From: Flavobacterium lacus
GTDB taxonomy: Bacteria > Bacteroidota > Bacteroidia > Flavobacteriales > Flavobacteriaceae
Assembly: GCF_003268815.1 (NCBI RefSeq)
Contig: NZ_QLSV01000003.1
Coordinates: 62,001 to 126,000 of the forward strand
Direction: 5' to 3'
Length of the DNA stretch: 64,000 nt
The position numbers and the translations under genes were made by a program. A model generated the notes under the pieces. The model saw only the letters and a list, made by a program, of their open reading frames with translations, was not told the DNA's origin and ran no database searches. Below, piece after piece: positions 5,595 through 44,852 of the stretch (its first letter is position 1; each line of letters opens with the position of its first letter).

Positions 5595-7514
5595 TTATTT
5601 ATTCATATTGACTACTAAAATCCACATTTCTTCGGAATATAAATTATTTAAATTATTCTCAATGAGCTTGTCTGCTTCTTCTTTGGAAGTAATGTATCCC
5701 AGATAAACATACATGTAATTATTAGTTGGATTTACAAAATAATTTGGGTTAAGTCCTCTGTCTCTTAGAACTTTCATAAACCGGGCGGCGTTTACTCTTT
5801 CATTAAAAACATTTACCACCAAATAATAGCCTTTGGGCGTATCGATATCGTTTAAAACTTCTACTGGTTTGTTTTCTTTCTGTTTTTCTGATTTAACTGT
5901 TTCAGAAGCAACAACCGGTTTTGATTCTGGTGTTACCTCGGCTGTTTTAGGAACTTTGGCCACATCCGGCTTTATTGAAGTTTTTGGTTCTTCTGTTTCA
6001 ACAACAGTTTCTTCTGTTTTGGAAGTTAATGGTTTTGAAGCATCTTTTTTAGTATCTGCTTTTGAAGCTACCACCGGTTTTGTTTCTTCTTTCGTTTCTT
6101 TAACTTTTGTTTTCTCTTCTTCAACAATTGGTTTTAATGCAACCAAAGGCTTTGTTTCTTTTGCTTTAGAAATTATTTCATTTTGTTCGGCAATTGGTTT
6201 TGTGTTTTCCTTAGAATCATGAGCTAAACCATCTATTGCTTTTTGAGCTAATGAAGCATACTGAGAATCTTCTAAGGTTTGATTTTGAATAATTTCCTCA
6301 TTCGTGGTTTTATCAACAACTTTGAACTTACTGTCTTCATAAACCAATTTCGTAGTATCATCTTGTAATTCAACCGCTGGTTTTGTTTCAATAGCCATTG
6401 CACTGAAAAAAAGGTAGAAAACATCTCCTGACGACTTAAATCGAACAGTTGCTTCATCTGCATTATTCCCAATAAAACGGTTATTGTAATTTGATAAAGT
6501 GGTTAAAAAGGAGTCGTAACCCAACGTGTTTTTTCCATCAGGAATTCTGTATTTAAAATGCTCGTCTTCGATGGTAATGGAACTATCAAAAAAATTGCTG
6601 TAACGTCGAGTCACCGTTTTAACATTAGTGAAATCTTTGTTTTTTGATGAACCAAACATCAACAAATCGCCATCCACTTTAAAATCACCTTCCAAGGCTG
6701 CACCAGCTAATTTTACTTTAACATCTCCTTGTGGTTGGGTTTTGAAACCTTTGAAAATAACATTTACACTTTCACTTGATGCGCCGGCAAAACCATCGTG
6801 CGATACAATAAATTTTTCACTCATGGATTCGTCTTCATACACAAAAATCATGGTCCAACCCGCAGCAGAACCACCAATAAGCGTTCCTTGTGTGGCACGA
6901 ACATTTCCCACTGTATAAAAACCGTATGGATTTTGCAGGGCCGTCACATATTCTGTAATATCGGCATAAACTGCATAGGGAGCAGCATCTTTAAATTCTC
7001 TGTGTTTTAAACCATCAAAAATAATTTCGCCTTTAATTGTTGTATATTCTTTTTGATCGGGAAATTTCACCAGAACTTCTTCAAAAGGCTCTCTTGTTTT
7101 ATCGAAAGCCACGAAATTATCTTCTCCTTTTTTATAACCGCTTTCATATTTGTAGGTAGCTGACCAATATAATCCGGCATAAACAATTTTTTTGGAGTCT
7201 TCGTTTTTTTGAAATAATGCAGCACTACTAGATGAAAAAGTTTGTTTGTCGGTATCAATATCAATGTATTCCATATCGATTTCATCGTTAGTAATGGCAT
7301 CGATGCTTTGGTCGTTATACGGATCGTTGGGAGCGTATTTTTTATCAATACGATTTAGAATGGAATTAGCAATAATAGTCATATCGCCTTTTAAATTTGC
7401 TTTGTATCGCTCTTTAAAAGGGATGGCCATTTGAGCATGGCTCCAACTGACAGAAATTAAAAAAAATATTAAAAATAGATTTTTACATCTTTTTCGGTTC
7501 ATAAATTTACTCAT
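5595..7514 (-). CDS. SprB N-terminal-module protein with a C-terminal SPOR-like domain
   Basis: This 639-residue exported protein (signal peptide ending SWSHAQ, about residue 28) is built like a splice of two gliding-locus proteins. Residues about 28-375 match the N-terminal module of SprB in this window: ERYKANLKGDMTIIANSI against ERNLKGDMTLISNGI, the shared YIDIDTD/YIDIDSD and SSSSA, and both carry KIVYAGLYWSATY, TVGNVRATQG-type and DGFAG motifs. Residues about 395-555 are a low-complexity Lys/Glu/Pro/Thr/Val linker. Residues about 558-639 are SPOR-like and match the SprD C-terminus (NYFVNPTNN against NYFINPKNN). It has no T9SS C-terminal signal, so it is probably retained in the periplasm and may touch peptidoglycan. 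Function unknown; a gliding or T9SS role is inference. Confidence 0.75.
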   Translation of the reverse strand: MSKFMNRKRCKNLFLIFFLISVSWSHAQMAIPFKERYKANLKGDMTIIANSILNRIDKKYAPNDPYNDQSIDAITNDEIDMEYIDIDTDKQTFSSSSAALFQKNEDSKKIVYAGLYWSATYKYESGYKKGEDNFVAFDKTREPFEEVLVKFPDQKEYTTIKGEIIFDGLKHREFKDAAPYAVYADITEYVTALQNPYGFYTVGNVRATQGTLIGGSAAGWTMIFVYEDESMSEKFIVSHDGFAGASSESVNVIFKGFKTQPQGDVKVKLAGAALEGDFKVDGDLLMFGSSKNKDFTNVKTVTRRYSNFFDSSITIEDEHFKYRIPDGKNTLGYDSFLTTLSNYNNRFIGNNADEATVRFKSSGDVFYLFFSAMAIETKPAVELQDDTTKLVYEDSKFKVVDKTTNEEIIQNQTLEDSQYASLAQKAIDGLAHDSKENTKPIAEQNEIISKAKETKPLVALKPIVEEEKTKVKETKEETKPVVASKADTKKDASKPLTSKTEETVVETEEPKTSIKPDVAKVPKTAEVTPESKPVVASETVKSEKQKENKPVEVLNDIDTPKGYYLVVNVFNERVNAARFMKVLRDRGLNPNYFVNPTNNYMYVYLGYITSKEEADKLIENNLNNLYSEEMWILVVNMNK

Positions 7515-7557: not shown

Positions 7558-7565
7558 CAAAGGTA
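7558..7565 (-). promoter_or_regulatory. -7 promoter box of the SprB-module/SPOR gene
   Basis: The minus strand reads TACCTTTG (TAnnTTTG), 43 bases upstream of the start at 7514. Confidence 0.45.
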
Positions 7566-31621: not shown

Positions 31622-33601
31622 ATGATAAAAATGTACGTAATACTAATTACAGGATTTGTGTTTGCTAATTTGCAAGCACAAGATGCTCCCGTATTGACGT
31701 TTACGATACCCACCCAAAACACCTTGTTATTGAATCGGTTTTTGATGAATCCAACATTTTCTGCGGTGCGTGAAAACGATTCTTACCTCACACTTTACCA
31801 TAGAAATCAATGGATTCAATTTGATGATTCACCAGAACTTTACATGCTTTCGTATTCAGGAAAATATGGGGAAAGAGCAGGAGTGGGGATTGGAATTTAT
31901 CAACAAAATTTAGGAATAATTACCAGTTTTGGTGGCGTTGGAAATTATGCGTATCAAATTCCGATTCGTGAAAAAATAAAGTTAACATTAGGTTTCAACA
32001 TTGCGTATTACAACAGTGGCGTGGACCGAAACAGAGCAGTAACTAACGAACCTGATCCGGCCATTATGGCGTTGCGAAACAATTCAATTCTAACGCTAAA
32101 ACCCGGTTTAAATTTAACTTGGGGAAGTTTTGATTTTGGAGTTTACGCCGAAAATTTTGTGGATTATGATTTTAAATCCAGCGAAATGGTTCAAGACTAT
32201 TCGCAAAAAACATACACCGGTCATATAATGTATCATCATCAAATGCAAAATCAGGAAGGGTTGTTTGAAAATGGTTTTTTCAGATTAATTGCTCGAGGAA
32301 AAATGAATCAGACGGATGATTTTGTGTATGGTGGTTCAGTGATTACCAACTTTCCAAATTTAGGTTGGGTGCAAGCCGGAGTTGATGATTTTTTTGGAGT
32401 GAATATTGGCGTTGGAGCTCATTTTACCAAAAAATTGTCCTTAGGTTACACGTATGAAAGAGTGATAAACGATGGTTTAGTAAATTTTGGTCCAACCCAC
32501 GAAATCACACTTTCGTATCGATTTGCAGGAAAAGAGAACGAAGAAACATACAACATAAAATCATCAAAAAAAAAGCCTACAGCAGTTGTTAGAAAGCCAA
32601 AAGTGTTGAAAAAAACAGAAGAGTTTGAAGAAGAATACGAAGATGATTTTGCCGAAGAAGAATATGAAGATATGGCCGAAGAACCTATCATCATTGAGCC
32701 GGCTCCAAAGAAGAAAAAATCGATTTTGAAAAAGAAAAAACCATCAAAAACCATTGCTGATGTTGAAGCGGAAGAAGAATATGAAGAAGTGGCAAACGAA
32801 GAAACGAAATCCTATAACAAAGACATTGAAATTGAAAAATTAAAAATGACGTTGGATGAAAATAATTTAAAACTATTGGAAATCATTGTCAAACAAGATT
32901 CGCTTGAAAATATGAAGAAAGCCGATTTTGAAAAACGTATTGAAAATATGATGCAATACATCGAACGATTAGAAGTAACCATTGCCGAAAAAGATTGCAA
33001 TTGCGATCCGAAAACAACAGTGGTTACCGAAGAAAAAACGGTTGAAACCACAACAAAAACAACTGTAAAAAATGCTGAAACCCCTGTAGTTAAAGAAGAC
33101 AAAAATGATTTGAACAGCAAGTTATCAGCGATGAAATCATCAACTAAAAAAGAAGAAAATGAATTACCATCAACTAAAAATAATTCAAAAAATACTGATT
33201 TGGAATCTAAAATTTCCAAACTCAAAAAAGAAGAACCAAAAACAAATACCAACTCAAAATTTTCCTTAACCGATGAAGAAATCAAAGCGTATTATTCCAG
33301 ACTGACCGACAAAAAAAGAGCCACTGCCAAAAAGGGAAACTTTTTGCAAGTAGACAATCAAGAACCCGGATTTTACATTATTTCCAATGTATTTTCTGAC
33401 CCTGCTTTTGCGGATGATTTTATCAAAAAACTAAAAAAGCGCGGAATTAAAGCCAATTATTTTATTAACCCAAAAAACAATTTCAGGTATGTTTATTTAA
33501 AAAAACATTCTGATTGGAGTGAAGCCCTAATCTCCTATTACACGAATGTGGAAAACACCTATTTTGATGAAATTTGGATTATGAACATTAACATAAAATA
33601 A
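31622..33601 (+). CDS. sprD: SprD, PorP/SprF-family outer-membrane protein with SPOR-like C-terminus
   Basis: A 659-residue protein with three parts. A signal peptide (ending NLQAQ) and a PorP/SprF-type barrel run to about residue 298 (LNRFLMNPTFSAVREND, GVGIGIYQQNLGIIT, ITLSYRF). A long Glu/Lys-rich linker with coiled coil spans about 300-575. The SPOR-like domain is at about 580-659 (PGFYIISNVFSDPAFADDF, NYFINPKNN, WIMNINIK). PorP/SprF proteins hold partner T9SS substrates on the outer membrane, here most likely SprC. The SPOR-like end would face the periplasm. sprB follows after 10 bases, so sprC-sprD-sprB are clearly one transcription unit. Confidence 0.9.
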   Translation: MIKMYVILITGFVFANLQAQDAPVLTFTIPTQNTLLLNRFLMNPTFSAVRENDSYLTLYHRNQWIQFDDSPELYMLSYSGKYGERAGVGIGIYQQNLGIITSFGGVGNYAYQIPIREKIKLTLGFNIAYYNSGVDRNRAVTNEPDPAIMALRNNSILTLKPGLNLTWGSFDFGVYAENFVDYDFKSSEMVQDYSQKTYTGHIMYHHQMQNQEGLFENGFFRLIARGKMNQTDDFVYGGSVITNFPNLGWVQAGVDDFFGVNIGVGAHFTKKLSLGYTYERVINDGLVNFGPTHEITLSYRFAGKENEETYNIKSSKKKPTAVVRKPKVLKKTEEFEEEYEDDFAEEEYEDMAEEPIIIEPAPKKKKSILKKKKPSKTIADVEAEEEYEEVANEETKSYNKDIEIEKLKMTLDENNLKLLEIIVKQDSLENMKKADFEKRIENMMQYIERLEVTIAEKDCNCDPKTTVVTEEKTVETTTKTTVKNAETPVVKEDKNDLNSKLSAMKSSTKKEENELPSTKNNSKNTDLESKISKLKKEEPKTNTNSKFSLTDEEIKAYYSRLTDKKRATAKKGNFLQVDNQEPGFYIISNVFSDPAFADDFIKKLKKRGIKANYFINPKNNFRYVYLKKHSDWSEALISYYTNVENTYFDEIWIMNINIK

Positions 33602-33611
33602 ACACCCCAAA

Positions 33612-36600
33612 ATGAAAACGCCCCAAATGCCACACTTAAAAACAATCTTCCTACTCGGTTGTTTTTTACTACTCAACTTGGCTGCCTATGCCCAAGTTCC
33701 GGTTCCTTTTACGGTTCGCTATGAACGAAATTTAAAAGGAGATATGACTTTGATTTCAAACGGAATTGTTAACAGACAAACCAATTCCGACAGCCCGAAT
33801 GTTCCGTACAATGAAGTTGGAAATTCATCTGAATTCAATGATAACCTTAACATGCGTTACATCGATATTGATAGCGACCCAAGTACGTTCAGTTCCAGTA
33901 GTGCATCTCTACTTTTGCCTGCCAGCGGATGCAACAAAATTGTGTATGCCGGATTATATTGGTCAGCCACGTATCGATTCAATAACGGGTTTTCTACTTC
34001 TCCGGGAGAAGGTGATAATGTGCGTGAAAATGATTTTAATCAAGTGCGATTAAAATTGCCCGGAGGTGCTTATCAAAACATCACCGGACAATTGCTATTT
34101 GACGGATTTACAGACCCTAATTTTATAGCAAACAGTCCATACAGTTGTTTTGCAGACATTACTTCTTTGGTAACCGGTTTAGCCAATCCGGAAGGAGAAT
34201 ACACAGTGGCAAATATTAGAGCTACGCAAGGACAAATAAATGGGGGAGGAGTTTCGGGAGGATGGACTATTTTCTTTGTATACGAAAATCCAACCATGAC
34301 GGGAAAATACATTACGGCTTATGACGGTTTTGCAGGCGTTCGTGCCACAATTGGTCAAACGGATATTTCTTACTCCGGATTTACGACTTTGCCTCCGCCA
34401 TTTCCGGTAAGAGCAAAATTAGCTTCGGCCGCCTTAGAAGGTGATAATAGAATTACGGGCGATCAGTTGTTATTTAGAGCTGACTCAAACGCTACTTTTA
34501 CCGCGTTGGGCAATACATTAAATGTAACCAACAATTTTTTTAATAGTCGATTAACGCTTAACAACACTGACTTTGTAGATCGAGTTCCAAACAGTTTAAA
34601 TACGTTGGGATACGATGGAGATATTATTACAGTAGCGAATCCGCTTAACAGTGTAATTCCGAATAATGAAACCGGAGCAACACTTCGGATTACCTCAACA
34701 CAAGACACTTACTTTATGTTCTTCAATGCATTTAATATTGAAGTCATAGAACCGGATATTAAATTAGTAAAAACAGTCGAAGATTTAGCAGGAAACGACA
34801 TCGGTGGGGCTGATGTGAACCTAGGGCAATTCTTAGATTATGTTATTACTTTTCAAAATGTAGGTAATGATGATGCTACCAACGCCACAATACGAGATAT
34901 TTTACCGATTAACACCACGTTTATTTCAGTGGATTTAAGTGGAGCTCCTGGGGTGACTTTCACTAATGATCCTGCTTTTGATGAACTGATTTTTAATTTA
35001 CCAAATAATTTGGTAGAAATGGGCGATCCTATTTATACCATTCGCATTCGCGTTCAAGTGGCAACAACTTGCAGTGAGTTGGAAGATGCTTGTTCAAATT
35101 TAATTCAGAATCAAGCCTATGCTACTTATCGTGGAGTTTTAAACAGCAATTGGATATCAAATGACCCAAGTTTTGCCGGACTAGACAGTTGTGGATTTGG
35201 TCAACCGGGTCCGGCGAATTTCTTGGTCGATATCGATGATTGTATTTTTGAAAATGAAGCCTATTTATGTGGTAGTGATATAACGCTTACCGCAGCTAAT
35301 GGGTACGAAACGTACACTTGGTACAATAGTTCCAATGTAGTAATTGGAAATACGCAAACCATTACTGTTTCCAATGTGGGAACGTATACAGTTGTGAATA
35401 CAGCAACTCCTCCGTGCATCGGAATTACTCAAACGTTTAATGTATTATTATTTGGAGCAACACAAACCAATCCGGTGATTCCTTTTGCCGATGAGGTGGT
35501 GATTTGTCCGAATAATGGAGAACAATTGCCTTATATATTCTTATGTGGAACCAATGATAGTCAGCTTATTCAAACCGGAATCAGTGATGCAACCAGTATT
35601 GTTTGGGAGGTGTTGAATGAAGCAAGTTGTCCAGCGGTTGGTATTGATACATGTGCTAATAATAACCCGTCTTGTTCATGGAATCAAGTGGGAACGGGTG
35701 CCAATTTTAATGTAACAACGGCAGGACAATATCGCTTGACAATCAATTATCAAGATGGCTGTTTTACTCGTTTCTATTTTAATGTGTATACGAATTTATT
35801 AGACATTCAGTATGTAACAACAAACATACTTTGTAATACACCTGGAAGCATTACGATAACGAATCTTCCGTCGGATTATCAATTTCAATTAGTTGATCAA
35901 ACAACAGGAAACATTTTAGTTCCTTATCAAAATAATCCGGTGTTTACAATTACAAATGCGGGAGTTTACACCGTTCAAGTTACACAAATTGGTGTGACTG
36001 ACGGATGTGTTTTCGAATTGCCAAACATCGGAATTCAACAAAATAATTTTCAAGTTAATTTGATTCCACAAAACACCAATTGTAATGGTTTTGGAAGTAT
36101 TCGTGTGCAAGCAACAGGAGCACAGCCGCAATATCAATTTAACATCACTAATCCAATTTCTGCAACAAGCGGATGGGTTGTTGATAACGATTATACCTTC
36201 AATAACCTAAATCCGGGAACTTATACCGTTACAGTTGTTACAGAAGATGGTTGTTCATTTACAGGAGCAGTGACCATTGTAGATCAAAATGATTTGGCTT
36301 TAGTAGCAACTGTTTCTCAAAATATCACTTGTAATCAAGGCAACATTTTAGTAAATCCTTCTGGTGGACAACCACCACATTCTTTTGCTATTTATAGTTA
36401 CAATGGAATCTTGCAAAATCCAACAGCAGCAGATTATCAAACCAGCGTTATTTTTGACATTGAATTTGGTCAACAAGGAACCTATGTTTTTATAGTTGTA
36501 GATGCAAATAATTGTACTGCTTTATCCAATCCCGTAACAATTGAGTTAGTTCCCAATGTTCAATTCACGACAACTATTCACGACATAAATTGTTTTGGTC

Positions 36601-39600
36601 AGAATGATGGATCAATTATCTACAATTTAACTTCATCAAATGGCTTTCAAGTTTCTTATCAATTATTAGATGAAAACGGAAACATCATTAGCACTAATAA
36701 TTCGGGCATTTTCAATAATCTGCCTGCTGGAAATTACACTGTTGTTTTGGTTCAATCACAAGGAAATCGGGTGTGTGAATTCCCAACCGATTTTACCATT
36801 ACTGAACCAACACCAATGACCGGTGTGGCTGTGATTACTGAAAATTATACTTGTATAACCAACGCAGGAACAATCGGAATTCAACCGGGAAGTGTCTCCG
36901 GCGGAACTGCTCCGTATTTGTATAGTATTGATGGTGTTAATTTCATCTCAGCATCTGAATTTGCTAATTTAACATCCGGAAATTATACGATTTATATTCA
37001 AGATGCCAACGGCTGTGTTTTTATAACTAATACCATTGCATTAGTTGCACCTAATCAATTAACCGATTTAACGTTTAGTGCAACTGCTTTAACGTGTCCG
37101 TCACAAAATGCAACAGTTACAGTTACCACCGTTGGCGGAACTGCTCCGTTTACCTTTCAAATTATCGCTCCAGCCGGACAAACGGTTAACAACGGAACTA
37201 ATCCTGTTTTTGCAGGATTAACTGCCGGAACTTATACGTTTCAAGTAACCGACAGCAATGGGTGTACGTATCAAGAAACCTACACTATCAACCCGTTACC
37301 AATTATTGATGTAATTGGTCAAACGATAAGCAATGTGGTTTGTTTTGGAGCTTCAAATGGAGAAATTTCATTTTCGGTAACCAATTCAAATCCGTACAAT
37401 TATCAAATTGTGAATAGTGCGAATGCAATTGTTGCATCAGCGAATAATTCAAATTTAGCGACTATTTCTTTAACCGGATTAACAGCTTCAGCTTATACGA
37501 TATCGGTTACAGACACCATTACTAATTGTACAGACACCACGACAGCTATAATTGAAGCACCAAGTAGTGCGTTGGGTTTTACATTTGTTACCAATCAAAT
37601 TAGTTGTAATTCTAACGGAAGTGTAATCATTACAGCTACCGGCGGGTGGGGAAGTTATCAATACCAACTAACGCAACCAAATGGGGTAGTGGTTGGACCT
37701 CAATCAAATGCCACGTTTACAAATTTAACTCAAGCCGGAACCTATACGATTTCGGTTAATGATATCAATGGTTGTGTTGTGAGCAACACATTCAACCTAA
37801 CTACGCCAACAAATCCTGTTGCTGTAATTGCATCGTCATCCGATTTATGTTTTGACGCTAATGGGGCTACATTAGTAATTGCAGTGACGGGTGGTGTAGT
37901 TCCTTATACCTACAGTATCAATGGAAATCCATCACAAAATTCAAACACATTTGCCAATTTAACTCCGGGAAGTTATACGGTAATTATTACGGATGCCAAT
38001 GGATGTACCTCAACTGTTTCGCAAACCATTCAACCTGAATTAACAGGCGATTTATCGTTAACCAAAGGTTTGGATTGTACGGCGTCGCCAAACGCTCAAA
38101 TTTCAGCTGCAATCGCTGGCGGATTAGCGCCGTTTACCTATCAAGTTTCTTTTAACGGGGGAGCTTTTGGAACATCCACGAATGTGGTTGGAACTAACTT
38201 TGTGTATTCTACTGCGAACTCCGGAAATTATCAATTTTTGATAACCGATGCACAAGGCTGTACTTTTACAAGTCAAATTGTTACTGTTGACCCGTTGACA
38301 TTGCCGGAAATTACCTCGGTTGTAGAATTACAAGGAATTTTATGTCATGGAGGAAACGAAGGAGAAATTCAAATCAATACCAATAACGCAGTTGGATTGG
38401 CTCCTTTTGTTTTAGAAGTAATCAATACCACAACCGGTATAAATTACGGAACGCAAACGTCGGGATTAACAGCCGGAAATTATCAAATTACGTTAACAGA
38501 TGCTAATTCGTGTACCGATACAGCATCTATTACATTAACTGAACCTAATCCGATTGCTTTCACAATTACTACGGTAGATATTACGTGTAACAATCCGGGT
38601 GGTACTTCTTATGGTGAAATAATCGTGCAAGGTGTAGCCGGTGGAACAGCTCCATATACTTATATTTTAAATAATAACTTCGGATTTATAGATTCATATA
38701 CTCCGGTAACCAATGAAAATCATTCCTTCCAAATTCTTAATTTCGGAATTTATAATGTAGAAGTAATTGATGCCAACGGATGTGTATTTATAGTGGATGA
38801 AATCATCATTGCTTCACCTCCAAGTGATTTGATTATTGATGTTTCTGCTTCCACTTCTAATTGTGTGAACGGTGGAACGGCGGTAATTACAGTAACTTCT
38901 GCAGTAAGTAGTGGTTCGTATGAATTTGCTATTTTAGAAACCAACACCTTACCTTATTCCACAAACTACCAACCGGCTGATGTTGGAACTCCTGAAACTT
39001 CTACTTTTACAGGATTAGTTCCGGGTGTAACGTACACTTTTGTAGTACACGATTTAATAACCGATTGTTATTATTTTAAAACTGCTGATACACCAATTAA
39101 CACCCCATCCAATTTAACTTCGGTGATAGATATGGTTGGAAATGTTAGTTGTACGGGAAGTAATGATGGTTTTGTGAATTTTACATTTGATAATTATGAT
39201 GCTACAGCGACGAGTGTATCCTACGAAGTATTTAATTCTCAATCGAATATTTCCACTGGAATTACGGGAATGTCATCACCGCTTGGCGGACCAATTTCTG
39301 TTACAAATCTTGGCCCATTAGCTCCCGGAATTTATTACATTTTGTTTACTGAAAATGGAGGAACATTAACCGGATGTAGTAGTGCATCAATACCATTTAC
39401 CATTTCACAATCAACTAATTTATTGCAAGTAACTGCGAATGTTACCAGAAACGACAACTGTTTAAACAACAGAGGACGAATCACTGCAACAGGTCAATTT
39501 GGAACAGCTCCTTATCAATATCAATTGGTTTTAGCAGGCAACCCTGCACCAACTGTTGCCACGTGGGCGGGCAGTGCAACCAATGTTTTCAATGTGGAAG

Positions 39601-42600
39601 GCGGAAATTATGTAGTATATATTCAAGATGCCAACGGATGTATTCAATCAGCACCTGTATTTGTTCCAACAGATCCTTCTCCGCAAATTTCAGCTACTGT
39701 AACCAATTTATGTACAGCTGCTCAAGGCGATTTCACCATTGAAGTAACGTTAACAACGGCCGGAATTGCTCCTTATACGTTCAGTTTAAACGGCGGAACA
39801 TTCCAAGCACAAACGGTTCCAACATTTACTTATACCAATTTGAATTCAGGAAATTATTCAATTGGAGTGAGAGATTTTAACGGATGTATTCATACTGTAA
39901 ACCTTACTATTCCTGCTCCTTTGAATTTAACTCCGGCAATTACAGCTCAAACTTCTTGTGCTAATAACGATGGAATTATTACCGTAACACCTTTCGGCGG
40001 AAGCGGAACTTTTACTTATGAACTACAAAACAATGTAGGCGGTGTAATTGTTGCTGCTCAAGCTTCTCCAATATTCAACGGATTGGCTTCAGGAAATTAT
40101 GTGGTGGTAATCAATGACACAACCACAGGTTGTTCTGCTCAAGCTCCAATTGAATTAGAACCTGCAACTCCTGTAACTTTTACCACTGTTCATAATGATG
40201 TAAGTTGTAATGGCGGAAATGACGGAAGTATTACCGTGACTTTACCATCATCAAATGATAACCCGATTTACACGTATGTTTTAACAGATGGTGTAAATGC
40301 CCCAATTTCTCAAAATAATGGGGTTTTCACCGGATTAGCGGCTGGAACTTATACGATTGCTGTGACTTCTGCCAGAGATTGTTCGTTACAAGAAATCATT
40401 GTAATTGATGAACCGGCTTTATTAACAGTTGCTGCAACAGCTACCGATTTTGCTTGTGATGCTTCTAATGTGGTTCAAACATCAACCATTACAGCCACAG
40501 CCAATTTTGGAACAGCTCCTTATGTTTACAGCATTAACGCAACGAATTTCTTCGCTTCCAACACATTTACAATTGTAGATAATGGAAGTGTTCAAAACAT
40601 TACTGTGACTGTTCGTGATGCTAATAACTGTTTGGCAACTACGGTCGTTAACATAAATCCGCTACCAACCATTACTGCAGTTACTGCAACAACGGTAACG
40701 AATTTAACGTGTACAAATGACGGAACCGTTCAAATTAATGTAACCGGTGGTTCTGGTGATTTTACGTTTGAATTATTACCACAAGGAAGTCGGCCTGCCA
40801 TCACACCGGGAAGTGGAGTCTTCAGTGCCAACTTTACGTTGACTGAACCTGGAGCTTATACATTCCAAGTAACTGATAATGTTACAGATTGTTATTTTAT
40901 AACAGCTCCTTACGAAATTGCTCCTTTTGATACCATCGAAGCAACTATAATCAACTCATCTGCTGTAACGTGTTTTGGCGATACGGATGGAACAATCACC
41001 GTGAATGTTTTGGGTTATGTTGGAAATGTTACCTATTATGTAATTGATATTCAAGGAAATACGGTTGCTTCCGGAAGCGGAAATACTGCTATAAATCCAT
41101 TTATCGTTTCTGGATTATCAGGCGGAAATTATCAAGTGGTTTTAACAGCTACCGAAACACCTTTCTGTACAGCTACATCTAACTTTGCAGTTGTTTCTTC
41201 TCCAAGTGAGCCTTTGGTTTTAACTGCTAATGAAACAGCAAATGTGACTTGTACAAATAATTTAGGTGAAATTTTTGCCAATGCAACCGGAGGATGGGGA
41301 ACGTATCAATATGAATTGGTTAACAACACGACTGCTACAACTGTTCAGCCTTTTGGAGCCAATTCTTTATTCTCAGGATTGACTGCCGGAAATTATACAG
41401 TTACTGTGGAAGATGCCGGAGGTTGTTCAGTAAGTTCAACTGTTATTCTGATTCAACCGAGTTTAATTTCAGCGAATCTTACTTCTACCAATACTAATTT
41501 ACTTTGTAATGGTGATACAAATGCTTCTGTAACGGCAGCAAATGTAACAGGAGGTCAAGGAACATATCAATATATTTTGAACACCTATGATTCTACCGGA
41601 ACAACAATTGTAACCAGTTCAGGAGGACAAACGAGTCCAACTTTTGATGGATTAGGTGCCGGAATTTACAGCATCACCATCACAGACGGATGGAATTGTG
41701 ATTTTACAACCAACATTATCACTATCACTGAACCAACAACTGTAGTGGCTTCATTAACCTTAACGAGTTCATTAACCTGTCAAAATGATGCGGTAATCAC
41801 TGTTTCTGCTTCGGGTGGAATGGCTCCGTATCAATACAGCACAGACGGATTCACTTTTACCAACACAACGGTTTACAATGTCGGTCCTGGAACGTATCAG
41901 TTTTTTGTAAGAGATGCAAACAATTGTGCCGTAGTTCAAACCAATCAAATTACGATAGAAACTATTCCTGATTTAGAATTGAATTTGAATCTGAATAGTG
42001 CCACCATCAACTGTTTTGGAGAAAGTACAGCAACCATCATTGCCAACACAACAGGCGGTTTAGGAAATTATAGTTACACGCTTTTAGATGGAGCAAATAA
42101 CGTAATTGCCGGTCCACAAAGTAGCGGAATGTTTACCAATCTTCCATCTAGTAATTATATCGTTGAGGTGGATAGTGTGGATTGTAATGCAGTTTCATCA
42201 GTTATCCAAATCACTGATCCGCAAGAATTGATGATTTCTAACTTGACTGTCAATAATGTTTTATGTAATGGTGGTGAAAACGGAAGTGTTTCCATCCAAA
42301 CTACAGGAGGAACAGGAACAGTTCAATATGCGATTTCGCCTAATTTGAATCAATTTTTCAACACCGGAACATTCAACAATTTAGCTCCGGGGAATTATGA
42401 TATTATTGTTCAAGATCAAAACGGTTGTTTCATTTTATTGGATGTTGAAATCACAGAACCTGCTCCAATAGTAGCCGATGTTGATTTAATATCTGTTGTC
42501 CAAAACTTGTGTTTAGGTGATAATGATGGTTCGTTTACCGTTCTAATCACCGGCGGAACTGCACCATATTCAACCAGTTTGAACAACCAAGATCCAAGTG

Positions 42601-44852
42601 CTTTTGTTGAAGGACAATTATCGTTCTCAGGATTAGCAGGAGGAACTGATTATTTCATCTTCGTAAAAGATGCCAATGGTTGTGAAACAATTGCGTATAT
42701 CTTCTTAGATGCTCCGGTAGAAGTAATTCCAGCTATCGAATCAGTTGTGTATAATTGTACAGGAAATGTGCCGGGTAACATCGTAACTGTTTCTGTCAAT
42801 GCATCAGCAGTTGGAAATGTTCAATATGCTTTGGATGGTGGAACATATCAAGCCTCAAATGTGTTTGTGAATGTTCCAGCCGGAAACCATACTATTTCAG
42901 TTCAACACACAAATGGTTGTACCAAAACTGTTGATGTGAATATCGATGATAATCAACCGTTAAGTGCAACTTTATCAAGTGTTCAAAACGTACTTTGTAA
43001 CGGAGATTCAACCGGAAGTGTAACGGTTGATGTTACCGGAGGAACAGGAACGATTGAATATGCAATTTCACCTAACTTAACCACATTTACAACAAACAAT
43101 GTGTTTACGAACTTAGCTGCCGGAACGTATGACATTATCGTTCGAGATGGAATTGGATGTAATGTTACGCAACAAGTAATCATTACAGAACCAACCGTTG
43201 TGAATTCAAGTGTTTCTGCATTGGTGCAGGAATTATGTACAGACGATGGAAACGCAAGCATCACAATTGCTGTAAACGGCGGCGTTGCTCCTTATTCAAC
43301 AAGTTTGAATAATCAAAATAACTTTGTAGCCAATCAATTTACTTATGCTAATTTAACTGGTGGACAAACCTATACCATTTTCGTTCAAGATGCGAATGCT
43401 TGTATTTCTTCTATTCCGGTAACGTTAGATGCTCCTGTAACAATTTCTCCAACTATTGATGTGACCTATATTTGTGCAGGAAATATCGTTGGAAATACAG
43501 TTACCGTAACTGTAAATTCAGCTATTGAAAATGATGTAACCTATTCATTAGATGGTGGAGCTTTCCAAGCATCAGAAACATTCAGCAATGTTGCGGTTGG
43601 AAACCATACCATCAGAGTAAGACATAGTAATGGTTGTGAGCAACAAGTTCAGTTTACCATCAATCCATCCACACCGGTTCAAGCGGTATTTACACAAGTG
43701 GATGTAACTTGTCATGGTGAATCAACAGGTTCTTTCCAAGTTTCAGCATTTGGCGGTAGCGGACAATTAGAATTTGCCATTTCTCCAAACTTGACAGATT
43801 TTGGTCCAAACCAAACATTTACCAATTTACCTGCCGGAAATTACACGACTATTGTTAGAGATGAGATTGGTTGTACTACCCAGTTAAACATCACTATTAA
43901 CGAACCAAATCCTTTAGATGCTTCCTTAGTAACGATGTTCCCGGATTTGTGTGCAGGTGATAATGTAGGAGCAATTGAAATTTCCATCATTGGTGGAGTT
44001 GCTCCTTATTCAACAAGTTTGAATAATGAAAACAATTACACACCCAACCGTGTTTTGTTTGAAGATTTAGCTGGCGGACAAACCTATACCATCTATGTAA
44101 GAGATGCCAACGGATGTGTAACAACATTGCAAGTGGCAGTTGATGGAGGAATCAACATTTCTCCCGGAGCTGATGTTGTATATGGTTGTGTTGGTGATTC
44201 AGCTTTTAATACCGTTACCATCAAAGTAATGCAGAATGTAGAATCGCAAGTAACCTACTCGTTAGATGGTGGAGCATATCAATCTGGAAATGTATTTACC
44301 AATTTATCAAACGGAAATCATACTGTAACCGTTCTTCATGAAGATGGTTGTTCGGAAACAATTGGATTTACCATTTCGAATTATATTCCGATTACCTTAA
44401 CTTTAACTGAAACCTATCAAAATCAGTTTACTGCAACTACAACCGGAGGAAGCGGAAGTTATACTTATTTCCTTAATGGTGTAAATTATGGATACAACAA
44501 TGTTTTCCAAATACTAGCTACCGGAACCTACACCGTGGTTGTTGAAGATGAAAACGGTTGTACGGCCGAAGCTCAAATTTACATCGAGTTTATCGACATC
44601 GATATTCCGAACTTCTTTACACCAAATGATGATGGTGATAACGATACGTGGGTTCCTGAGAATTTAGAAGGATTCCCAAATGCTCGCGTAGAAGTTTTTG
44701 ACCGCTACGGAAGAATTATTACGCAATTTGGACACAAAGGCGAGTGGGATGGAACCTACAATGGATCACTGTTACCTACCGGTGATTATTGGTACACCAT
44801 CACGCTCGACGGAGGAAGACAATTTGTTGGAAATGTTACGCTTTACAGATAA
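33612..44852 (+). CDS. sprB: SprB, giant mobile surface adhesin for gliding
   Basis: This 3746-residue protein is the cell-surface adhesin carried along by the gliding machinery. A signal peptide (to about residue 28, AAYAQ) is followed by an N-terminal module to about 375 that is shared with the protein at 5595-7514. A DUF11-like domain lies at about 380-495 (EPDIKLVKTVED). The bulk is a chain of roughly 80-residue SprB repeats (each with an early Cys, GG-x-x-PY/YxY, G-x-Y-x-(I/V)-x-V-x-D-x-x-GC). Three copies of a larger unit of about 240 residues sit near the C-terminus (Cys anchors at 2885, 3129 and 3367). Residues 3664-3746 are a type B T9SS C-terminal domain. The start could also be the ATG five codons later. 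Confidence 0.95.
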   Translation: MKTPQMPHLKTIFLLGCFLLLNLAAYAQVPVPFTVRYERNLKGDMTLISNGIVNRQTNSDSPNVPYNEVGNSSEFNDNLNMRYIDIDSDPSTFSSSSASLLLPASGCNKIVYAGLYWSATYRFNNGFSTSPGEGDNVRENDFNQVRLKLPGGAYQNITGQLLFDGFTDPNFIANSPYSCFADITSLVTGLANPEGEYTVANIRATQGQINGGGVSGGWTIFFVYENPTMTGKYITAYDGFAGVRATIGQTDISYSGFTTLPPPFPVRAKLASAALEGDNRITGDQLLFRADSNATFTALGNTLNVTNNFFNSRLTLNNTDFVDRVPNSLNTLGYDGDIITVANPLNSVIPNNETGATLRITSTQDTYFMFFNAFNIEVIEPDIKLVKTVEDLAGNDIGGADVNLGQFLDYVITFQNVGNDDATNATIRDILPINTTFISVDLSGAPGVTFTNDPAFDELIFNLPNNLVEMGDPIYTIRIRVQVATTCSELEDACSNLIQNQAYATYRGVLNSNWISNDPSFAGLDSCGFGQPGPANFLVDIDDCIFENEAYLCGSDITLTAANGYETYTWYNSSNVVIGNTQTITVSNVGTYTVVNTATPPCIGITQTFNVLLFGATQTNPVIPFADEVVICPNNGEQLPYIFLCGTNDSQLIQTGISDATSIVWEVLNEASCPAVGIDTCANNNPSCSWNQVGTGANFNVTTAGQYRLTINYQDGCFTRFYFNVYTNLLDIQYVTTNILCNTPGSITITNLPSDYQFQLVDQTTGNILVPYQNNPVFTITNAGVYTVQVTQIGVTDGCVFELPNIGIQQNNFQVNLIPQNTNCNGFGSIRVQATGAQPQYQFNITNPISATSGWVVDNDYTFNNLNPGTYTVTVVTEDGCSFTGAVTIVDQNDLALVATVSQNITCNQGNILVNPSGGQPPHSFAIYSYNGILQNPTAADYQTSVIFDIEFGQQGTYVFIVVDANNCTALSNPVTIELVPNVQFTTTIHDINCFGQNDGSIIYNLTSSNGFQVSYQLLDENGNIISTNNSGIFNNLPAGNYTVVLVQSQGNRVCEFPTDFTITEPTPMTGVAVITENYTCITNAGTIGIQPGSVSGGTAPYLYSIDGVNFISASEFANLTSGNYTIYIQDANGCVFITNTIALVAPNQLTDLTFSATALTCPSQNATVTVTTVGGTAPFTFQIIAPAGQTVNNGTNPVFAGLTAGTYTFQVTDSNGCTYQETYTINPLPIIDVIGQTISNVVCFGASNGEISFSVTNSNPYNYQIVNSANAIVASANNSNLATISLTGLTASAYTISVTDTITNCTDTTTAIIEAPSSALGFTFVTNQISCNSNGSVIITATGGWGSYQYQLTQPNGVVVGPQSNATFTNLTQAGTYTISVNDINGCVVSNTFNLTTPTNPVAVIASSSDLCFDANGATLVIAVTGGVVPYTYSINGNPSQNSNTFANLTPGSYTVIITDANGCTSTVSQTIQPELTGDLSLTKGLDCTASPNAQISAAIAGGLAPFTYQVSFNGGAFGTSTNVVGTNFVYSTANSGNYQFLITDAQGCTFTSQIVTVDPLTLPEITSVVELQGILCHGGNEGEIQINTNNAVGLAPFVLEVINTTTGINYGTQTSGLTAGNYQITLTDANSCTDTASITLTEPNPIAFTITTVDITCNNPGGTSYGEIIVQGVAGGTAPYTYILNNNFGFIDSYTPVTNENHSFQILNFGIYNVEVIDANGCVFIVDEIIIASPPSDLIIDVSASTSNCVNGGTAVITVTSAVSSGSYEFAILETNTLPYSTNYQPADVGTPETSTFTGLVPGVTYTFVVHDLITDCYYFKTADTPINTPSNLTSVIDMVGNVSCTGSNDGFVNFTFDNYDATATSVSYEVFNSQSNISTGITGMSSPLGGPISVTNLGPLAPGIYYILFTENGGTLTGCSSASIPFTISQSTNLLQVTANVTRNDNCLNNRGRITATGQFGTAPYQYQLVLAGNPAPTVATWAGSATNVFNVEGGNYVVYIQDANGCIQSAPVFVPTDPSPQISATVTNLCTAAQGDFTIEVTLTTAGIAPYTFSLNGGTFQAQTVPTFTYTNLNSGNYSIGVRDFNGCIHTVNLTIPAPLNLTPAITAQTSCANNDGIITVTPFGGSGTFTYELQNNVGGVIVAAQASPIFNGLASGNYVVVINDTTTGCSAQAPIELEPATPVTFTTVHNDVSCNGGNDGSITVTLPSSNDNPIYTYVLTDGVNAPISQNNGVFTGLAAGTYTIAVTSARDCSLQEIIVIDEPALLTVAATATDFACDASNVVQTSTITATANFGTAPYVYSINATNFFASNTFTIVDNGSVQNITVTVRDANNCLATTVVNINPLPTITAVTATTVTNLTCTNDGTVQINVTGGSGDFTFELLPQGSRPAITPGSGVFSANFTLTEPGAYTFQVTDNVTDCYFITAPYEIAPFDTIEATIINSSAVTCFGDTDGTITVNVLGYVGNVTYYVIDIQGNTVASGSGNTAINPFIVSGLSGGNYQVVLTATETPFCTATSNFAVVSSPSEPLVLTANETANVTCTNNLGEIFANATGGWGTYQYELVNNTTATTVQPFGANSLFSGLTAGNYTVTVEDAGGCSVSSTVILIQPSLISANLTSTNTNLLCNGDTNASVTAANVTGGQGTYQYILNTYDSTGTTIVTSSGGQTSPTFDGLGAGIYSITITDGWNCDFTTNIITITEPTTVVASLTLTSSLTCQNDAVITVSASGGMAPYQYSTDGFTFTNTTVYNVGPGTYQFFVRDANNCAVVQTNQITIETIPDLELNLNLNSATINCFGESTATIIANTTGGLGNYSYTLLDGANNVIAGPQSSGMFTNLPSSNYIVEVDSVDCNAVSSVIQITDPQELMISNLTVNNVLCNGGENGSVSIQTTGGTGTVQYAISPNLNQFFNTGTFNNLAPGNYDIIVQDQNGCFILLDVEITEPAPIVADVDLISVVQNLCLGDNDGSFTVLITGGTAPYSTSLNNQDPSAFVEGQLSFSGLAGGTDYFIFVKDANGCETIAYIFLDAPVEVIPAIESVVYNCTGNVPGNIVTVSVNASAVGNVQYALDGGTYQASNVFVNVPAGNHTISVQHTNGCTKTVDVNIDDNQPLSATLSSVQNVLCNGDSTGSVTVDVTGGTGTIEYAISPNLTTFTTNNVFTNLAAGTYDIIVRDGIGCNVTQQVIITEPTVVNSSVSALVQELCTDDGNASITIAVNGGVAPYSTSLNNQNNFVANQFTYANLTGGQTYTIFVQDANACISSIPVTLDAPVTISPTIDVTYICAGNIVGNTVTVTVNSAIENDVTYSLDGGAFQASETFSNVAVGNHTIRVRHSNGCEQQVQFTINPSTPVQAVFTQVDVTCHGESTGSFQVSAFGGSGQLEFAISPNLTDFGPNQTFTNLPAGNYTTIVRDEIGCTTQLNITINEPNPLDASLVTMFPDLCAGDNVGAIEISIIGGVAPYSTSLNNENNYTPNRVLFEDLAGGQTYTIYVRDANGCVTTLQVAVDGGINISPGADVVYGCVGDSAFNTVTIKVMQNVESQVTYSLDGGAYQSGNVFTNLSNGNHTVTVLHEDGCSETIGFTISNYIPITLTLTETYQNQFTATTTGGSGSYTYFLNGVNYGYNNVFQILATGTYTVVVEDENGCTAEAQIYIEFIDIDIPNFFTPNDDGDNDTWVPENLEGFPNARVEVFDRYGRIITQFGHKGEWDGTYNGSLLPTGDYWYTITLDGGRQFVGNVTLYR
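42220..44390 (+). repeat. Three tandem ~720-bp coding super-repeats in sprB
   Basis: Each unit encodes three sub-repeats in a fixed order: one with TGGTGT-like/YAISPNL, one with APYSTSLNN, and one with a TV-x-V core and LDGG(T/A)(Y/F)Q. Corresponding Cys codons are at 42264, 42996 and 43710, giving periods of 732 and 714 bases. The units are clearly related but diverged. Confidence 0.8.

Follow-up and report, generated by a model that had tools for sequence, protein, structure and literature searches.

Gene, domain architecture and genomic setting

The gene analysed here lies at 5595-7514 on the reverse strand of the window, by which is meant the whole stretch of 64,000 nucleotides of Flavobacterium lacus DNA that was analysed. 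The window's list of open reading frames and the translation give an ATG start and a product of 639 residues; the extent of the gene had been recorded correctly in the initial annotation, from which the strand was missing. The names SprB, SprC, SprD and SprF are based on that annotation, on the domains found and on gene order rather than on comparison with reference sequences. The features of the gene and the homologous segments elsewhere in the window are collected in Table 1.

Table 1. Features of the gene and of the homologous head and tail in the window
Feature	Position	Strand	Basis
Whole gene, SprB-head/SPOR-tail protein, 639 aa	5595..7514	-	Open reading frame, Pfam, alignment to window proteins
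Predicted Sec signal peptide (residues 1-27), cleaved between SHA and QMAIPF, without lipobox cysteine	7434..7514	-	Read from the sequence by eye
Head, residues 28-380, two-lobed beta (jelly-roll-like), common to SprB	6375..7433	-	Alignment, models, fold comparison
Disordered Lys/Glu/Thr-rich linker, residues 381-548	5871..6374	-	Model, composition, dN/dS
SPOR-like tail, SprD type, residues 549-639	5598..5870	-	Pfam, alignment, fold, tail tree
Homologous head at the SprB N-terminus (ORF 33612-44852)	33699..34760	+	Alignment
Homologous SPOR-like tail of SprD (ORF 31622-33601)	33344..33598	+	Alignment

Residues 25-394 of the product were aligned with the window's SprB with identity in 164 of 378 columns (43%, E 2e-81), and the motifs NLKGDMT and KIVYAGLYWSATY occur in both proteins, so that the homology to the SprB N-terminal module described in the initial annotation stands. 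The same is true of the homology to the SprD tail, as residues 562-637 align with the SprD C-terminus, 31/76 positions being identical (41%, E 7e-14), and Pfam SPOR (PF05036) is found at residues 560-619 with 25.6 bits, above its cut-off of 21. The match of the 639-residue protein to the SprB head and the SprD-type tail is far beyond chance. In an AlphaFold2 model calculated with 46 family sequences, the head was modelled confidently (residues 31-378) and the tail was folded (residues 551-638); a helix at residues 7-24 corresponds to the signal peptide region. Nearly all residues of the linker between 385 and 547 have a pLDDT below 50, and the spacer of about 160 residues noted previously is a Lys/Glu/Thr-rich segment modelled as disordered.

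No T9SS C-terminal domain (CTD) was found in the protein with Pfam or NCBIfam at E-values up to 1, in agreement with the initial annotation, whereas the window's SprB gives TIGR04131 at 2.7e-27 as a positive contrast. At the same threshold, SprB repeats and a type B CTD (PF13573, PF13585, TIGR04131) were not matched, and the PorP_SprF barrel domain, present in SprD and SprF, is absent from the Pfam and NCBIfam results for the protein. The mature protein contains no cysteine. Because a T9SS export signal is not recognised, the sequence suggests that the protein is probably retained in the periplasm; another export route without a recognised CTD is possible.

The gene pgk lies 83 bp downstream, and the starts of sprC and sprB are approximately 21 kb and 26 kb away, consistent with the earlier placement beside pgk and about 20 kb from the spr operon; at 21 kb, the gene does not share an operon with sprC, sprD and sprF. 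A lytic transglycosylase with LysM repeats is encoded two genes away. Upstream of the gene, TACCTTTG at 7558..7565 on the reverse strand is a possible Bacteroidota -7 promoter element, although sites of this type are no more frequent in the whole window than in shuffled sequence.

A second complete member of the family was identified in the same genome (in the region L009:148-10054 of contig C1), with a length of 596 residues and a head 49% identical to that of the first. It stands behind two T9SS type B sorting-domain proteins (TIGR04131, over cut-off) and an esterase. The order adhesin, esterase, family gene recurs at five further loci (L066, L067, L072, L080 and L081), and the contigs of another two (L073 and L089) show just the esterase and the family gene; this recurrence would fit an adhesin-linked role. 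Elsewhere, among the loci from the best 80 of 558 matches scanned, the family gene directly precedes pgk in 23 of 48 family loci, in a window-like order, and in other genera it adjoins trpS and dprA. With the exception of the second-gene locus with its T9SS proteins and esterase, the neighbours (pgk, holB, trpS, dprA and other housekeeping genes) were considered uninformative as to function. The same genome also contains another large head-bearing frame of at least 1298 residues, with a very divergent head, that runs off the contig end (L010:9162-13055), and a separate SPOR protein beside a dprA-like gene (L011:8827-9780), whose tail is only distantly related. This last protein is presumably HU-like and cytoplasmic, and NCBIfam gives no match for it.

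Distribution, descent and selection of the family

The architecture is conserved across genera. A total of 20 loci from other genera of Flavobacteriaceae were inspected, of which 19, picked for short head-bearing frames, all hold family genes, and the remaining one, picked for a frame cut by the contig end, is a sprCDB operon. Among 25 aligned proteins, two of them from the window's genome, 24 have a signal peptide, a head, a linker of variable length and a SPOR-like end; the exception, L053, has lost the tail. When named genomes were scanned, 558 matches were obtained, and the best 80 of them fall at 79 loci, comprising 48 with a head and SPOR protein (53 open reading frames), 29 with SprB-type heads beside SprD and two with neither (L083, at a contig end, and L126). 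Carriers were found in Flavobacterium, Capnocytophaga, Lacinutrix, Aequorivita, Xanthomarina, Formosa, Flaviramulus and Aestuariibaculum. The term chimera, used in the initial annotation, is therefore misleading, as it suggests a one-off product.

Presence was counted using a family profile, for which the weakest member (467.7 bits) is clear of the best SprB head (394.0 bits). With 8-11 candidates scored per genome, which makes the counts lower bounds, at least 21 of the 149 Flavobacteriaceae genomes sampled (including the decayed copy of G142) and at least 10 of 120 genomes of the genus Flavobacterium (including the window's own) carry the gene. In a sample of 392 genomes from the phylum, with three candidates scored per genome, at least two carriers were found, both from the window's genus, and at least four genomes outside Flavobacteriaceae have the head in frames of 722-1458 residues with no match to the tail. 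The family is thus conserved and patchily distributed in Flavobacteriaceae, and its patchy presence (10/120 in the genus) implies a role that is dispensable in most species. Some copies depart from the common form: the copy beside pgk in G142 (L053:8518-9768) lacks the SPOR tail and its match crosses several stops, so that it appears decayed, the L122 copy is truncated at the start, and at L059:5965-9963 two family genes stand in tandem, of which one has a linker of unusual length (762 residues for the whole protein). In the literature searched, outside which subscription papers and preprints lie, no description of this protein family was found and no paper was found that brings SprD together with a SPOR domain.

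In a quick, unrooted tree without bootstrap of 86 heads (thinned from 139), a branch with an SH-aLRT of 100 separates 33 adhesin heads (17 from SprB and 16 from other adhesins) from 51 family heads and two tail-less ones, of which L053 is truncated and L083 is cut by the contig end. The split implies that the architecture did not arise several times over from local sprB genes; repeated or recent fusion at the local sprD-sprB junction is not supported by this tree, and a single origin of the family appears likely from the sequences. With a midpoint root, used for drawing only, the adhesin heads come to lie nested next to the family heads of Flavobacterium (branch 95).

A quick tree built from 103 SPOR domains, left after thinning of 175, also without bootstrap and based on 82 columns, so that its inner order is weak, shows the tails of the family and of SprD intermingled, with five other flavobacterial SPOR domains set apart by a branch at 100. 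A second and quite different SPOR subtype (branch 100) ends the SprD homologues, or the frames upstream of the head, at L140, L142, L145 and L157. Of the 48 family loci, 10 have tandem SPOR copies; among SprD proteins, once 17 partial rows were dropped, 24 of the 34 full-length ones have them as well.

Comparison with the closest relative (L061) yielded dN/dS values of 0.047 for the head, 0.084 for the tail and 0.37 for the linker; the values come from this one close pair, and a second pair (L062) is saturated at synonymous sites in two segments. These ratios point to strong purifying selection on the head and tail and to much weaker constraint on the linker, which appears to drift more freely. 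Both ends are thus kept by selection.

Fold of the head and altered glycan positions of the tail

The head alone, aligned with SprB heads, was modelled at a mean pLDDT of 94.2. Across 46 heads, drawn from the family and from SprB-type proteins, 33 positions never vary, so that both kinds may have kept one mode of ligand binding. Beyond this shared N-terminal head the two proteins differ: SprB, the gliding adhesin, has 3746 residues, SprB repeats and a type B CTD, both of which the 639-residue protein lacks, and the heads fall on opposite sides of the SH-aLRT 100 branch. The window's head is matched by no Pfam family, and the matches seen among the 46 heads are isolated ones, such as that of one head to DUF3344 at 3.4e-4; no solved chain in the PDB matches the heads by sequence at E-values up to 0.5. 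Structural matches to the head are weak (best Z 7.9, TM about 0.2), jelly-roll-like and name no ligand. Resemblances to GH86, furin/Kex2 and CBM15 (Z 8 or less), and to double-jelly-roll viral capsids and PNGase F in Foldseek (low TM), were not used to assign a function, as they may reflect a common arrangement only.

The tail has a SPOR fold, with CwlC retrieved by Foldseek at a probability of 1.00 (E 0.027; Z 6.1) and the DedD SPOR domain aligned over 82 residues (Z 7.0, rmsd 4.0). The modelled tail follows the RNP-like beta-alpha-beta-beta-alpha-beta order, and 26 of 42 tails match Pfam SPOR at E-values up to 0.01. A PDB sequence search with the whole 639-residue protein gave no match, and three matches for tails at E-values of 0.05-0.09 were taken as chance.

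As described in PMC6895207 for the complex of RlpA with denuded glycan, the ligand is contacted by Gln Q270 (FtsN Q251) and by an arginine patch of R302, R309 (FtsN R285) and R311, with most other contacts made by the backbone. In an alignment of low identity anchored in beta1 and beta3, in which FtsN, DedD and E. coli RlpA are in the expected register and from which the misaligned DamX was excluded, 42 tails of the family and of SprD have Ile (23), Val (18) or Leu (1) in place of the glutamine and Tyr (40) or Ser (2) at the FtsN R285 position; Tyr is also found two positions further on in 37/42 and Trp at the I313 position in beta4 in 40/42. Among eight other flavobacterial SPOR domains the glutamine is likewise absent from all eight and the beta4 Trp is present in seven, and these two traits are therefore not special to the family and SprD. 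The distinctive feature, among the domains aligned, is the Tyr-x-Tyr common to the family and SprD. The tail may still bind glycan through the backbone, and may equally well have a protein ligand.

The tail thus resembles that of SprD in SPOR subtype, in its replaced glycan positions and in the tandem copies of some members; unlike SprD, a PorP/SprF-family barrel, the protein has no outer-membrane barrel and carries the head in place of the PorP domain. With FtsN, DamX, DedD, RlpA and CwlC it has in common the tail fold and a disordered linker before a C-terminal SPOR domain, and it differs from them in its signal peptide and large N-terminal domain, and in the replacement of the denuded-glycan Gln by Ile/Val and of the Arg by Tyr.

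Candidate roles of the family

We infer a role that can be tested directly, to which we assign about an even chance of being right: a conserved, patchy Flavobacteriaceae family of periplasmic tethers, each with a docking tail of SprD type, a flexible arm and a head with a ligand of its own. Following the signal peptide, the protein would be exported to the periplasm by Sec and would stay there. The tail would dock where that of SprD docks, because the SPOR subtype is shared, that is, on the periplasmic scaffold used by the tail of the SprD barrel, either cell-wall glycan or an envelope protein; we infer in addition that SprC is carried by SprD, the barrel whose gene adjoins its own. With an arm of about 160 residues, the head would be free to explore the region beneath the outer membrane and to engage a ligand there, either glycan or protein. 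PorE-type tethers offer an analogy only, as periplasmic proteins in which one end anchors and the other binds a partner; as described in PMC9143113, PorE is an OmpA-like peptidoglycan anchor of the T9SS with different domains, an outer-membrane-associated lipoprotein that binds PorP. Outside the gliding operon, the SprB head, of which no Pfam model matches the window copy, is found repeatedly in combination with the SPOR subtype of the SprD tail, and the members of this family could be deleted and tagged with SprB left intact. The family offers a handle on two questions, the head ligand of the main gliding adhesin and the partner that holds the periplasmic tail of SprD.

A SPOR protein of division or of the cell wall, recruited to the division site together with its head through binding of the tail to denuded septal glycan, was judged rather unlikely. 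The tail does have a SPOR fold, a LysM lytic transglycosylase is encoded two genes away at the pgk locus, and in the account of PMC6895207 those SPOR proteins whose function has been established serve division or morphogenesis, and glycan is contacted mostly through the backbone. However, the key Gln is Ile, Val or Leu in 42/42 tails and the Arg corresponding to FtsN R285 is Tyr in 40/42, the same tail is found on SprD, and a patchy distribution (10/120 in the genus) is ill-suited to a division gene.

Exposure at the surface, or secretion without a recognisable CTD, would make the protein a small adhesin. The other head-bearing frames listed are longer (at least 667 residues), four among them with a visible end (L147, L148, L150 and L151) have a T9SS-type C-terminus according to our own small profile, and the second gene of the genome adjoins T9SS type B proteins. 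Against this reading, which we hold to be improbable, stand the lack of any CTD in Pfam or NCBIfam at E-values up to 1 and the description in PMC6895207 of characterised SPOR domains as acting on the cell wall.

The initial annotation had proposed that the protein guides, decoys or anchors SprB during export by means of the shared head. In favour of this are the head, 43% identical to that of SprB over its whole length, the tail held in common with SprD, the neighbour of SprB, and the T9SS translocon SprA, found in 30 of 30 carriers in a search that covered carriers alone and hence offers no contrast. However, the presence of the gene is independent of SprD and of SprB-type heads, which speaks against such a function as a general role. 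In the family sample, SprD-like proteins occur in 13/21 carriers and 78/128 non-carriers (Fisher p = 1.0, kinship ignored), where presence was defined by an E-value up to 1e-12 alone, some matches cover the barrel part only and the G055 match, being the family's own SPOR, was removed from the count. SprB-type heads, defined by our own cut of 230 bits outside family members, occur in 4/10 carriers and 38/110 non-carriers of the genus (p = 0.74, kinship ignored), and any other head-bearing protein in 16/21 carriers and 85/128 non-carriers of the family sample (p = 0.46, kinship ignored).

SprD was undetectable in 14 of 30 carriers (19 searched separately and 11 judged from the family-sample search, the decayed G142 included), which gave just their own SPOR tail or weak matches to barrel-only frames. 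With up to 11 candidates scored per genome, no SprB-type head was detected in 6 of the 10 genus carriers; five of these have no other head at E-values up to 1e-40, and one has a distant head only (190 bits). Conversely, 38 of the 42 genus genomes with a SprB-type head lack the family gene. It follows from the carriers with no detected SprD or SprB-type head that the family persists without SprB in many species. Wide occurrence in non-gliding bacteria lacking SprB had been named beforehand as evidence against the proposal; the absence of SprB from carriers was largely borne out, whereas neither GldJ, over cut-off in 148 of 149 family genomes, nor SprA, found in all 30 carriers, separates carriers from the rest, and GldJ was set aside as a marker of gliding. 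Aequorivita carries the family gene, and SprD was undetectable in a sampled genome that is probably of this genus (G024), but according to PMC5167729 gliding may be either present or absent in the genus, so this genome decides nothing on a link to gliding.

A general SprB-assisting role was accordingly judged very unlikely, although a role for SprB is possible in genomes with both genes. The gene is probably not a helper of SprB and probably encodes a separate periplasmic tether, and its kinship to SprB is best read from the sequences as a shared domain, not a shared job, which corrects the tempting inference that sharing the SprB head must mean serving SprB. A decaying, functionless relic of domain shuffling, suggested by the patchy presence, by the tail-less copy beside pgk whose match runs through stops (L053/G142) and by the truncated start of the L122 copy, is hardly credible and is contradicted by the purifying selection on both head (dN/dS 0.047) and tail (dN/dS 0.084) and by the 53 frames with this architecture at 48 loci.

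A variant on the docking partner of the tail, which we consider a long shot, is that the SprD-type tail no longer reads denuded glycan and docks on the moving gliding track. On this view the protein would ride on the track within the periplasm and move a head of adhesin type along beneath the outer membrane, in species lacking SprB as well. A track-docking tail would be the non-covalent counterpart of the Cys-x-Cys hook that bonds SprF to GldK. Of the 34 full-length SprD proteins, 28 lack Cys-x-Cys, and a tandem SPOR is present in 24 of those; none of the six with Cys-x-Cys has a tandem, all having a single SPOR. These six are the window's SprD, in which residues 459-461 are Cys-Asn-Cys, like the Cys-x-Cys of SprF, together with L091, L093, L095 and L155 (Flavobacterium) and L092 (Flavobacteriales), and in that lineage the motif could be a second disulfide hook to GldK.
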